Positions 18,785-35,133 of a stretch of DNA of 64,000 bases are shown here, piece by piece. The notes below the pieces were generated by a model that worked only from the letters and a program-made list of their open reading frames with translations, ran no database searches and was not told where the DNA came from. The stretch covers positions 19,882-83,881 of IMG/VR virus record IMGVR_UViG_3300030109_004085. One strand, given 5' to 3'. Position 1 is the stretch's first letter, and the number at the start of each line of letters is the position of its first letter. A program made the translations under genes and the position numbers. The stretch comes from a virus.

Positions 18785-19909
18785 TTATTCTTCTTTATCT
18801 ACGTCGTAGAAATCGCCTGCGTCTCCTTCGCGATTATCAAACTTCTTGATAATCTCCTCATCCATAATCTTAAATACACGATTTCTAAACTTATCATCTT
18901 CCAACTTATCTAACCAATGGGCTGACTGGAACTTTTCTTCTGTGCCATCTGCATAAACTAATGAATACCAAGCTCCTGCTTGCTTCAAATTGTCGGAGAT
19001 CTTGATTGCCTCCAACCAACTTTCCCTATCTTGCACCCCGATGTCTTCTGAGCCCCAAAGAATTTTGAAGGCGCAGTTTCTACCGGCAGTTCCAAATCGT
19101 GACTTCTCCAACTTAACTTTTACTTCTGAACCAATGCGGAAGCCACTTTCATCTACAATAAAGGCAGCCTTTGCCTTTCTTCCTGTCAGCCAAATGCGCA
19201 GGGAGTACACATAATGCATAGACTTGCCGCCCGGAGTGATATAGGGCGTGGTCATAGCAATAATACGCGCATTTGGACCCTGTGGGATATTCGTCTTTAA
19301 CTGATTAAGAACCAAGAACGCAGACTGTGTGTTTGCGATTGGAACCGTCAGCTTTGACATTCCCTTTGATAGAACACGAGCCTTGACGGCCATCGTAGAG
19401 TTCGGGTTGAAATCTCCCTCTACATCTGAGACCGTTGGAGTCAGAGCAAGTGAATCCCAAATGAATAGGGTTCGGGTCGCTCCTGAATCCAAAACTGCCT
19501 CAACAGTCTCAAGAACATGTTCCACGCTCTGTGCCTGAACATAAATAAGGTTTTCTAAATCACATCCCGTACGCTGTAAGAAGCTCGGGTCAATAGCAGA
19601 CTCTGCGTCCATATAAACAACATTCATACCCATCTTCTGGGCGTTTGCAGCAGTCTGCGCAGCCATAAAAGACTTTCCTGTTGCTTCAAGTCCAGCAATC
19701 TCCGTAAACTTGCCGACCGGGATTCCAGCCAACTGTCCTCGGCAAATGATAGAGTCAAGCCAGCGCGAACCGGTTGGAATCCATTCTTTTACCTCAGTTG
19801 GATTTTCTTGATTTAGATTGTGGGCACACTCCACCCCTGAAGTCTTATTAATGAGACTTCGTAGACCGTCAATCGAAATCTTGCCAGCCTTTGATTTACT
19901 CTTCGCCAT
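18785..19909 (-). CDS. RecA/UvsX-family recombinase
   Basis: This is a 374-residue strand-exchange protein. Walker A is GLEATGKS (73-80), the YMDAESAID segment (about 99-107) follows as in UvsX/RecA, and LFIWDSLALTPT (about 148-159) is Walker B. The loop AMTTPYITPGGKSMHYV is the L2-like DNA-binding region. The acidic C-terminus (EGDAGDFYDVDKEE) is typical. It would act in recombination-dependent replication and repair with the gp32-like protein at 21211-21987. The ATG at 19909 overlaps the 3' end of a small membrane-protein gene by 14 bases. High confidence. Confidence 0.94.
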   Translation of the reverse strand: MAKSKSKAGKISIDGLRSLINKTSGVECAHNLNQENPTEVKEWIPTGSRWLDSIICRGQLAGIPVGKFTEIAGLEATGKSFMAAQTAANAQKMGMNVVYMDAESAIDPSFLQRTGCDLENLIYVQAQSVEHVLETVEAVLDSGATRTLFIWDSLALTPTVSDVEGDFNPNSTMAVKARVLSKGMSKLTVPIANTQSAFLVLNQLKTNIPQGPNARIIAMTTPYITPGGKSMHYVYSLRIWLTGRKAKAAFIVDESGFRIGSEVKVKLEKSRFGTAGRNCAFKILWGSEDIGVQDRESWLEAIKISDNLKQAGAWYSLVYADGTEEKFQSAHWLDKLEDDKFRNRVFKIMDEEIIKKFDNREGDAGDFYDVDKEE

Positions 19910-29735: not shown

Positions 29736-30074
29736 TTATTCCAAAATGTAATTTAATATCTTTTCTAGCGGAGTCGGTATGTAAATAATATCTCCGACAG
29801 TCAGATCAGCTTCGGTTGGTTTTTTGTTATAATGCGCAATAACCCACCAATACTTTGGATTGCCGTAATACTTTGAAGCTAGTTTGTAGTACCTGTCTCC
29901 TACACTCCAGACGTGTTGCACCCTTGTTAGGTTCTTGATTTCATCGACAGTTGGATATTTTATAAATCTAGTTCCATACTGGAAGATTTGTTTGACTCCC
30001 CTGTCTTCAAGAATATTCTCATACTCTTCTAGATTGTTTTTAAGAACTCGTCGGTTATCGTATCTGCTGGTCAT
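29736..30074 (-). CDS. LysM-like baseplate wedge protein (T4 gp53-like)
   Basis: This is a 112-residue protein. The second half is a LysM-type module: VGDRYYKLASKYYGNPKYW (58-76), then WVIAHYNKKP, and a final GDIIYIPTP strand (94-102). This matches small baseplate proteins such as T4 gp53 and the gpX/LysM proteins of other contractile phages. The N-terminal 55 residues form a basic helical lead. It sits between a tail-tube-like protein and the hub-like protein. Good confidence in the fold and in a baseplate location. Confidence 0.8.
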   Translation of the reverse strand: MTSRYDNRRVLKNNLEEYENILEDRGVKQIFQYGTRFIKYPTVDEIKNLTRVQHVWSVGDRYYKLASKYYGNPKYWWVIAHYNKKPTEADLTVGDIIYIPTPLEKILNYILE

Positions 30075-33141: not shown

Positions 33142-33459
33142 CTAGTTCTTAAACGGCCACCGTAAGCCTGTTTCTTTCTCAAATCCAGAGACTGCTCTAT
33201 CTAAGTCTCTTCTGTTCGTCATGGTTCTAGAGTCGCTCAGTCCGTGTCTTATATAAGAATCCATATACCTCTTCTCGCCCCGAAGAGCTTTAAAGAACGA
33301 CTCAATCTGAGCTTGTGTCCCTCTAATAGTGGGGTTAATATTTACGCCGGCGTCATATAAATCCAGCAACAATCGGTTGACCTTATAAGAAAAATCTGTA
33401 TAAAGCCTCTCATTAAGGGACTTATCCGTTAAATCAATAACAATCTCATCTTTGCTCAT
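33142..33459 (-). CDS. Small tail-region hypothetical protein
   Basis: This is a 105-residue mostly helical protein. It starts MSKDEIVIDLTDKSLNERLY and ends ETGLRWPFKN; it has several basic patches (GEKRYMDSYIRHG) and no cysteine. It is the first gene of its unit, with the late promoter motif 21 bases upstream and the frameshift-extension gene ending just before that, and it precedes the tape measure gene by 11 bases. The position suggests a tail assembly factor or tape-measure partner. No homologue recognised. Confidence 0.65.
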   Translation of the reverse strand: MSKDEIVIDLTDKSLNERLYTDFSYKVNRLLLDLYDAGVNINPTIRGTQAQIESFFKALRGEKRYMDSYIRHGLSDSRTMTNRRDLDRAVSGFEKETGLRWPFKN

Positions 33460-33501: not shown

Positions 33502-33520
33502 GGCGCACTTATCGTGCGCC
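33502..33520 (-). terminator. Rho-independent terminator
   Basis: A perfect 7-bp GC-rich stem (33502-33508 with 33514-33520, loop of 5) is followed on the minus strand by TTTTTCTTT. The stop codon of the frameshift extension (33509-33511) lies in its loop, so the terminator directly ends the tail-assembly unit. Confidence 0.85.
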
Positions 33521-33697
33521 CGACATAGCTTTCTCTTCTGCAGCCTTCTTCTCATCAAAATGTTTTACGAGTCGATCCAAGAACCAGCGCCGTAATCCAG
33601 TGGGAAGCGAATAAGCCTCAGCAAAAGACCAATTTCCATGCTGCTTTAAAATAAAGAACTCTTCGTATAAAGTTGCTTGATAATCAGAGTTTAGGCC
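33509..33697 (-). CDS. Tail assembly protein: +1/-2 frameshift extension
   Basis: A 62-codon reading frame, +1 to the gene at 33684-34538, overlaps its 3' end and runs to a TAA at 33509. Its content looks like real protein: YEEFFILKQHGNWSFAEAYSLP, in part, then LRRWFLDRL and a charged tail. Between the preceding in-frame stop (TAG at about 33736) and this conserved core there is no ATG, GTG or TTG, so it cannot easily be started on its own. A run of seven T residues (33698-33704) joins the two frames. The arrangement is that of the G/GT-type tail assembly chaperones, which express a longer form by ribosomal frameshifting. A homopolymer sequencing error is the main alternative. Confidence 0.7.
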   Translation of the reverse strand, partial: GLNSDYQATLYEEFFILKQHGNWSFAEAYSLPTGLRRWFLDRLVKHFDEKKAAEEKAMSGAR

Positions 33698-34538
33698 AAA
33701 AAAAGTCGATATTAATCGGCACCTCCATTCGCTCTATGTGGGAGCAGTTGTCGCAATTAAAATCGGCTTTTAGTTGAATGTTTGGCATTGCCTCTTCGTA
33801 AGCTTTACGAATTTTTCTTGATAGATTGACTGGAATCTGATTTATGACCTCCTGCAAAGCGCTCGGCTGTGAGATGCCATTAACAGATACAAGGATGTTC
33901 TTCAAAAGTTCTGTAACAGTACCAACTTCCATCTTAAGCTTTCGTCTTCCTTCGACATACTTGCTGATTTTCTGTTCATCATGACCGGTCAGTAATTTGA
34001 TTTCAAAAGTAATCTCTGGGTTATACTCGTTAGCCGTAAGCAAAAAGTTGCCGTTGTCCAGAAGTTGCACATTTTCGAGCAAATTAGATTCTTTAATTTC
34101 TCTCTCTTGTAGAGAAAACTCTTTTTCGTTCAGGTGCCCGCAAGAAGGACAATTTACGCTTGTTCCATACAATGGACCAAAGCCTGTCTCTCGGACGGAC
34201 ATAATAATAGCGTTTTTATCGCCAATCAAAAGCGATGAAGGGTTAATGTTATCATCCACCAAAACAGAGCGCAAAAGCTTATCCATAACGACGCCCTTTT
34301 TAATCAGCGCTTCGGAGGAGAGGATATCTTCCTCTTTTGCTGTCATGTGTTTAATTTCAATTGTTTCTACTTTATGAAGTGGGTGTCCTTCACCATAAAA
34401 CAGTCCCTTACTTGGAAGTTCAACGAACTCCGTTGGGACCGGGAAGGAAAATAAGTTTTGTTGAAATTGTTCTGGTAGTTGCTGTTGTGGTGGCGGGGGC
34501 ACATCAGGCGCCCCTTGTCTGTTTGAATTTCTACTCAA
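33684..34538 (-). CDS. Tail/baseplate assembly protein (gp26-like or tail chaperone), 0-frame
   Basis: This is a 284-residue protein with a Pro/Gln-rich N-terminus (residues 1-33), a conserved-looking core beginning FVELPSKGLFY (about 38-48) and two zinc-knuckle pairs, CPSCG (about 130-134) and CDNC (about 264-267). The core resembles the gp26-type baseplate hub assembly proteins annotated in T4-like marine phages. The start is a TTG at 34538, since an in-frame TGA lies two codons upstream and a GGTGA ribosome-binding site precedes it; the next Met is past the conserved start. The frame ends in DFFWPKL; a T7 run in this ending allows a shift into a 62-residue extension, giving a predicted 342-residue long form. 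Confidence 0.8.
   Translation of the reverse strand: MSRNSNRQGAPDVPPPPQQQLPEQFQQNLFSFPVPTEFVELPSKGLFYGEGHPLHKVETIEIKHMTAKEEDILSSEALIKKGVVMDKLLRSVLVDDNINPSSLLIGDKNAIIMSVRETGFGPLYGTSVNCPSCGHLNEKEFSLQEREIKESNLLENVQLLDNGNFLLTANEYNPEITFEIKLLTGHDEQKISKYVEGRRKLKMEVGTVTELLKNILVSVNGISQPSALQEVINQIPVNLSRKIRKAYEEAMPNIQLKADFNCDNCSHIERMEVPINIDFFWPKL
33696..33707 (-). promoter_or_regulatory. Probable programmed frameshift site
   Basis: On the minus strand the codons read GAC TTT TTT TGG. A Phe-tRNA on the second TTT can re-pair perfectly after a +1 slip (or a -2 slip), and the next codon is then GGC of the extension frame. A -1 slip would meet TAA three codons later. Whether the shift is +1 or -2 cannot be told from sequence. 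Confidence 0.6.
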
Positions 34539-34557: not shown

Positions 34558-35133
34558 TTATCGAATGTTTGCTAAAGCTCTAGTTGCTGGACCTACGTCA
34601 TAAGTTGCCCAGTCGTAACGCATCTGGATTGTAATATCTAGAAGTTCCTCGCCTGCGTAATCTAAATCACCGAAAGTTACATTTGTAATAAAAGCATTCT
34701 GCAACTTCCAAGTTCCAAGTGTACCACCTTCTCCAGAAAGCTCGTCAAACTGAACCTGACCAAGCGCTGCTAGCGCAGCCTGCTTGTTCGGCGTTGAGGC
34801 TGGAAGGTTCTGTAGGAAAACATCTTCCTGAACGTCAGGCTTTAGATAACCCATCTGCTGGAGTGCCTGATAAAGAAGCTCGTTACCATCTGGCGAGACG
34901 GAGTTAACAATAGTCGCTGTGCATTCATTCCATGTGACCGCGCCTGGGTAGTAATATGTGTTCCCTAAAAACTTGTGCGATGTCTCGCCAACTGTGTAGG
35001 AGGGCTTTGTAACAGACTTGGCCAAATACTCGGCGTACGCAAAGTCTCCATCCGGCGTGATAAGCTCCGGGAATCTCAAAATAAATCTGTGTTGTCTCTT
35101 AGGTTCTGAAAGTGCGCTTGTCCAAAAGGCCAT
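34558..35133 (-). CDS. Tail tube protein (gp19-like)
   Basis: This is a 191-residue protein. The layout of N-terminal strand (QHRFILRFPEL), the TVGETSHKFLGNTYYYPGAVTW region (about 47-68) and the C-terminal LDYAGEELLDITIQMRYDWATY strand is typical of contractile-tail inner tube subunits of the T4 gp19 family. Such subunits stack as hexamers around the tape measure. It directly follows the sheath gene in transcription, which is the canonical sheath-tube order, and has its own promoter motif at 35161. Good confidence. Confidence 0.87.
   Translation of the reverse strand: MAFWTSALSEPKRQHRFILRFPELITPDGDFAYAEYLAKSVTKPSYTVGETSHKFLGNTYYYPGAVTWNECTATIVNSVSPDGNELLYQALQQMGYLKPDVQEDVFLQNLPASTPNKQAALAALGQVQFDELSGEGGTLGTWKLQNAFITNVTFGDLDYAGEELLDITIQMRYDWATYDVGPATRALANIR

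Follow-up and report, generated by a model that had tools for sequence, protein, structure and literature searches.

A putative T4-type tail assembly chaperone gene with a predicted +1 ribosomal frameshift, and its relation to T4 gp26 and gp51

A viral DNA fragment from IMG/VR carries a gp26-like gene that very probably gives rise to two chaperone forms, a short one of 284 aa and a long one of 342 aa, through a +1 slip at a run of T residues. The fragment (hereafter the window) is a stretch of 64,000 nucleotides, positions 19,882 to 83,881 of record IMGVR_UViG_3300030109_004085. The majority of ribosomes would end at the TGA stop codon of the gene and yield the short form. In a minority, with UGG in the A site, the P-site tRNA-Phe would shift from UUU to the overlapping UUU one base forward. 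These ribosomes would continue in the +1 frame and add 62 residues at the C-terminus, the tail of the long form. If the pair works as lambda gpG/gpGT does, the short part would serve as a coat for the tape measure protein, and tail-tube subunits would be brought in by the tail of the long form.

The window gene, its reading frames and its neighbours

The gene has 284 codons and a TTG start, and its 3' end reads GAC TTT TTT TGG CCT AAA CTC TGA, which gives the zero-frame product the C-terminus IDFFWPKL. The run of seven Ts lies at 33698-33704 on the minus strand; the surrounding features are listed in Table 1. Past this run the +1 frame reads GLNSDYQATLYEEFFILKQHGNWSFAEAYSLPTGLRRWFLDRLVKHFDEKKAAEEKAMSGAR and reaches its stop at 33509. 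This frame is already open before the run, and ATG, GTG and TTG are absent from it before the core of the tail. A +1 fusion joins 280 zero-frame residues to 62 residues of the tail. An earlier sequence-only reading of this DNA had given the positions of the gene, the T run and the tail, the 62-codon frame lacking a start codon before its core and the long form of 342 residues; all of these were confirmed on the sequence, the last for the +1 shift.

Table 1. Features at and around the predicted frameshift, in window coordinates
Feature	Position	Strand	Basis
Zero-frame gene, short form (TAC-N), 284 aa, gp26-like	33684..34538	-	PF12322, phrog_150, AlphaFold2
Predicted slip site, TTT TTT TGG	33696..33704	-	sequence and variants across clusters
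P-site UUU	33699-33701	-	
Zero-frame A-site UGG	33696-33698	-	
Re-paired UUU (predicted)	33698-33700	-	
C-terminal tail after +1 slip (TAC-C), 62 codons and stop	33509..33697	-	+1-frame pN/pS, tail homology
Predicted long form (TAC-NC), 342 aa	33509..34538	-	inferred from +1 shift
Tail tube protein, upstream neighbour	34558..35133	-	phrog_4542 tail tube, E 1.3e-18
105-aa ORF between chaperone and probable tape measure	33142..33459	-	no family match below E 0.1
Probable tape measure protein, 732 aa	30932..33130	-	position; PHROG matches weak only

The 284-aa product is matched by PF12322 (T4_baseplate; E 4.5e-14, 53.1 bits, cut-off 24.5) and by phrog_150 (baseplate hub; E 3.7e-14). PF12322 matched no other gene in the 83.9 kb of the record, a sequence that may be incomplete. 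An AlphaFold2 model of the short form (pLDDT 88.8) matched T4-like baseplate hub assembly proteins in a fold search of a viral library. Sequence and fold searches of the PDB returned no significant relative, the HK97 tail chaperone 2ob9 appearing as a fold match at rank 11 only (E 2.8), and NCBIfam matches were noise only.

The tail tube gene lies directly upstream of the gp26-like gene, which is followed by one small ORF and then by the probable tape measure gene. The small ORF found no match below E 0.1 in a Pfam/PHROG-type family search. The 732-aa protein is taken as the probable tape measure because an annotated tape measure gene follows the chaperone homologue at the same position in Flavobacterium phage immuto and Listeria phage LIS04. 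A 112-aa protein at 29736-30074 on the minus strand looks, by eye, like a LysM-containing baseplate protein of the T4 gp53 kind.

The window gene very probably belongs to a T4-type phage with a contractile tail and encodes its tail assembly chaperone, the chaperone role being the predicted part. The sequence-only reading had placed a tail-assembly gene in a T4-like context, which agrees with the PF12322 match and the location between the tail tube and probable tape measure genes. It had also invoked the logic of lambda G/GT, and an overlapping frame pair does lie between these two neighbours, the tape measure being assigned by position. Its mention of a gp26-like partner needs a correction of wording: the window gene itself encodes the gp26-like protein and does not stand beside one. 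A possible link of the tail (33509-33697, minus strand) to small proteins of contractile injection systems was considered, on account of a sub-threshold match to Pfam DUF6760 (E 0.074, 9-45 in register with 8-44), and set aside. A search with the DUF6760 profile gave no match in the window's genome and only sub-threshold matches in control genomes.

Frame conservation and the slip site among homologues

Homologues were drawn from IMG/VR and phage records, which provided 265 loci whose gene end could be read, and were clustered at 90% nucleotide identity. Of these loci, 254, corresponding to 150 clusters, have an open +1 frame for the tail. This common arrangement agrees with the earlier proposal of a slip other than -1, and it is the outcome of the homologue alignment that had been suggested as a check on whether the two frames are conserved and equally separated. 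A second frame is also open in 32 of the 254 loci, and the tail sequence is still +1 in those inspected. On bacterial MAG contigs (bins mostly Flavobacteriales), the +1 arrangement holds for all eight relatives in which the gene end is readable. The RM378 and SP-15 genes, used as scan queries, matched nothing beyond themselves. Only when read in the +1 frame does the tail show purifying selection: pN/pS in this frame is 0.24, 0.35 and 0.26 in three groups, against more than 1.1 in the other two frames. Among the three, the window's own group has 0.24 against 2.2 and 1.2.

The point at which ribosomes would enter the tail is narrowly bounded. In the homologues the nearest +1-frame stop lies 5 nt upstream of the P-site codon and the zero-frame stop 9-18 nt past the start of the A-site codon, which leaves about 17 nt spanning the T run as the stretch where entry must take place. 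In-frame TTT TTT Tnn occurs at two sites only in the 54 window genes, one of which is the slip site. The 9-mer TTTTTTTGG is found once in the 64 kb against 1.96 expected in shuffles, which is not beyond chance alone, and the case therefore rests on comparison with homologues.

The slip site was classified in 145 clusters, with outlying isolates treated separately. TTT TTT TGG is present in 108 clusters (followed by CCT in 106, CCA in 1 and AAT in 1), and the remainder hold only slip-compatible variants, namely TTT CTT TGG CCT (23 clusters), TTC TTT TGG CCT (6), CTT TTT TGG CCT (3), TTT TTT TAC CCT (2), TTT CTA TGG CCT (2) and TTT CTT TAC CCT (1). The immuto group has CUU-U at this site. Almost every cluster has UUU or CUU as the codon preceding the A site, and none has UUC; UUC accounts for 24.5% of the Phe codons elsewhere in the gene, although the clusters are related and the absence of UUC carries no formal probability. 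Directly past the slip site, the +1-frame residues FFGL are conserved. A MAG-derived locus (L293, near 5735) has eight Ts with TTC in place of TGG (AAC TTT TTT TTC CCT) and the same +1 tail.

A +1 move of the P-site tRNA on UUU-U, CUU-U or UUU-C fits 145 of 145 classified clusters. The outlying isolates SP-15 (TTT TTT CAC), GXN1 (TTC TTT CGT), BRock (CTG TTT CGC), LIS04 (TTT TTT AGT) and LR756508 (AAC TTT CTA) also have sites that permit it. The direction had previously been given as "+1 (or -2)", and of these two the homologues favour +1. Were the ribosome instead to slip by -2, the same fusion would result with a long form of 343 aa, and by pairing alone the window's seven Ts permit it. However, the same slip would set tRNA-Phe on UCU in the TTC TTT TGG homologues and would find no sensible re-pairing at TTT CTA TGG and UUU-C sites, yet the tail frame is unchanged in all of them, and this route is very improbable.

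We give equally little credence to the tail as a separate small protein, made by re-initiation or by coupled initiation close to where the first gene stops. Many homologues do have a start-like codon somewhere in the +1 frame, and in two exceptional loci inside or beside the +1 branch, L273 and L278, the tail lies in the -1 frame and appears to start from an ATG of its own, 2 and 5 nt past the stop of the first gene. In each of these the gp26-like gene match spans 1501-2205 with the tail just beyond it, and the slip codons are lost in L273. Homologues with their own start codon had been named beforehand as a refuting case; they do exist, but only as these two loci, which are probably natural conversions from a frameshift to a separate tail gene. 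Against independent initiation as the general arrangement, 39 of the 145 clusters, the window among them, show no ATG, GTG or TTG upstream of the core in the +1 frame, and both the slip codons and the FFGL residues are conserved. In the other clusters, start-like codons of the +1 frame stand at no shared position.

The seven-T homopolymer of the window might also invite slippage of RNA polymerase, with mixed mRNAs of which a part would encode the fusion; this is extremely unlikely, as runs of just 3 or 4 Ts (TTTCTTTGG, TTCTTTTGG and TTTCTATGG) keep the same frame relation. A miscounted seven-base homopolymer in an intact fused gene, conceivable for a metagenome-derived contig, is ruled out for practical purposes because the same frame break recurs in 254 of 265 loci, isolates immuto, Mel-JY01, RM378 and SP-15 included, and in 8/8 MAG contigs, with the tail selected in that frame only.

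The homologue comparison revealed no clear excess of stimulatory RNA structure upstream or downstream of the predicted +1 slip site, and no Shine-Dalgarno stimulator upstream of it (20 SD-like motifs observed, 17.3 expected). Influenza PA-X is made by a +1 slip at UUU-C, and the prfB gene of release factor 2 slips at CUU-U. The P-site slip on YUU-U, predicted in the window, is alike in prfB; however, prfB has UGA in the A site and an upstream Shine-Dalgarno element, whereas the window has UGG (Trp) and no such element.

T4 gp26 and gp51 and the -1 relatives

T4 gp26 and gp51 both match PF12322, so that the N-domain family is common to T4 and the window. The C-terminus of gp26, LKEFFELL, falls at the same place as the IDFFWPKL end of the window product, and gp51 runs on for about 50 residues beyond this gp26-type end. 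Using hhalign, the tails of the +1 group matched the tails of -1 relatives with a probability of 96.8, and the latter matched the gp51 tails with 97.0. The +1 and -1 tails pooled gave 95.7 against the gp51 tails, with column-shuffled controls at or below 4.9; the direct comparison of +1 tails with gp51 tails was weaker, at 27.5. T4 gp26 is the counterpart of the short form alone, and gp51 that of the short form plus a homologous tail. T4 has two paralogous genes for this, whereas the window has one gene with a +1 tail, and its record shows no further PF12322 match.

Kyanoviridae, Ackermannviridae, PhiW-14, the KVP40-like VH1_2019 and ZPAH1 have a -1 tail, which in most cases follows T TTT TTC. 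Domain order, homologous tail and position of the T-rich site are alike in the -1 branch (Kyanoviridae, Ackermannviridae, KVP40-like) and the window. The two differ in the shift, which is -1 and mostly after T TTT TTC in the former and would be +1 at UUU-U before GG in the window branch. In a tree of the common domain, a supported branch (100/99) separates the -1 groups and T4 gp26/gp51 from the +1 genes. Two further loci, L089 and L091 (Stenotrophomonas phage CM1 and LR756511), have a -1 tail behind T-rich runs; their N-domains group with the +1 genes in the tree, on long branches that make the placement unsure.

Given +1, -1 and two-gene arrangements in the PF12322 family, one chaperone family would therefore provide the same short and long pair in three ways. 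It is likely that a large T4-type chaperone branch, carried by phages of several bacterial phyla, shifts +1 at a compact UUU-U/CUU-U-before-GG or UUU-C site with no recognisable stimulator, while T4 uses two genes and the sister branch shifts -1. The shift would then have changed direction within the family and the product pair been kept.

Known frameshift systems and meaning of the +1 branch

Across long-tailed phages, frameshifting of the lambda G/GT type has been reported as a conserved feature, "except T4" (PMC5009743). Lambda and the window both place a short form and a frameshifted long form (predicted in the window) between the tail tube and tape measure genes. However, lambda gpG/gpGT slips -1 on a heptameric slippery site whereas the window tail is +1, and the likeness drawn here is one of arrangement. 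Other +1 cases include HSTV-2, considered a likely tail-chaperone example (PMC5009743), Listeria phage PSA, as cited in PMC9024508, and the HF1-like haloviruses, for which a tail-chaperone slip was proposed at TTT-CGC (PMC7230728). These share the +1 direction with the window branch, and the BRock site resembles the HF1 TTT-CGC. They are other viruses, and neither UUU-U before UGG nor the gp26/gp51 family is described for them.

Within T4-like phages, two tail-chaperone genes, one short and one long, are attributed to Vladimirov et al. (2022) where that study is cited in PMC10885494, and poly-T -1 signals in the tail-chaperone genes are credited to the same study in PMC12846349. Our literature search, in which Vladimirov et al. 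(2022) was represented by these citing papers, found no published description of the +1 branch. T4-type tail chaperones as such are thus already published, and the +1 branch appears, as far as these sources go, to be a new variant within them.

The predicted long form is missed or mis-started in public phage records of the +1 group. The tail is annotated as a short, late-start hypothetical protein in the records of immuto (L082:4833-4943), SP-15 (L086:4755-4874) and BRock (L087:4761-4943), and the long form is therefore missed there.

The +1 sites form a natural series with no obvious stimulator that would be useful for studies of +1 slippage in bacteria. T4, named in a review as the exception to tail-chaperone frameshifting (PMC5009743), may now be seen with gp26/gp51 as one of three solutions. 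With +1, -1 and two-gene versions in one family, why and how the direction of a frameshift changes becomes a question that can be asked.
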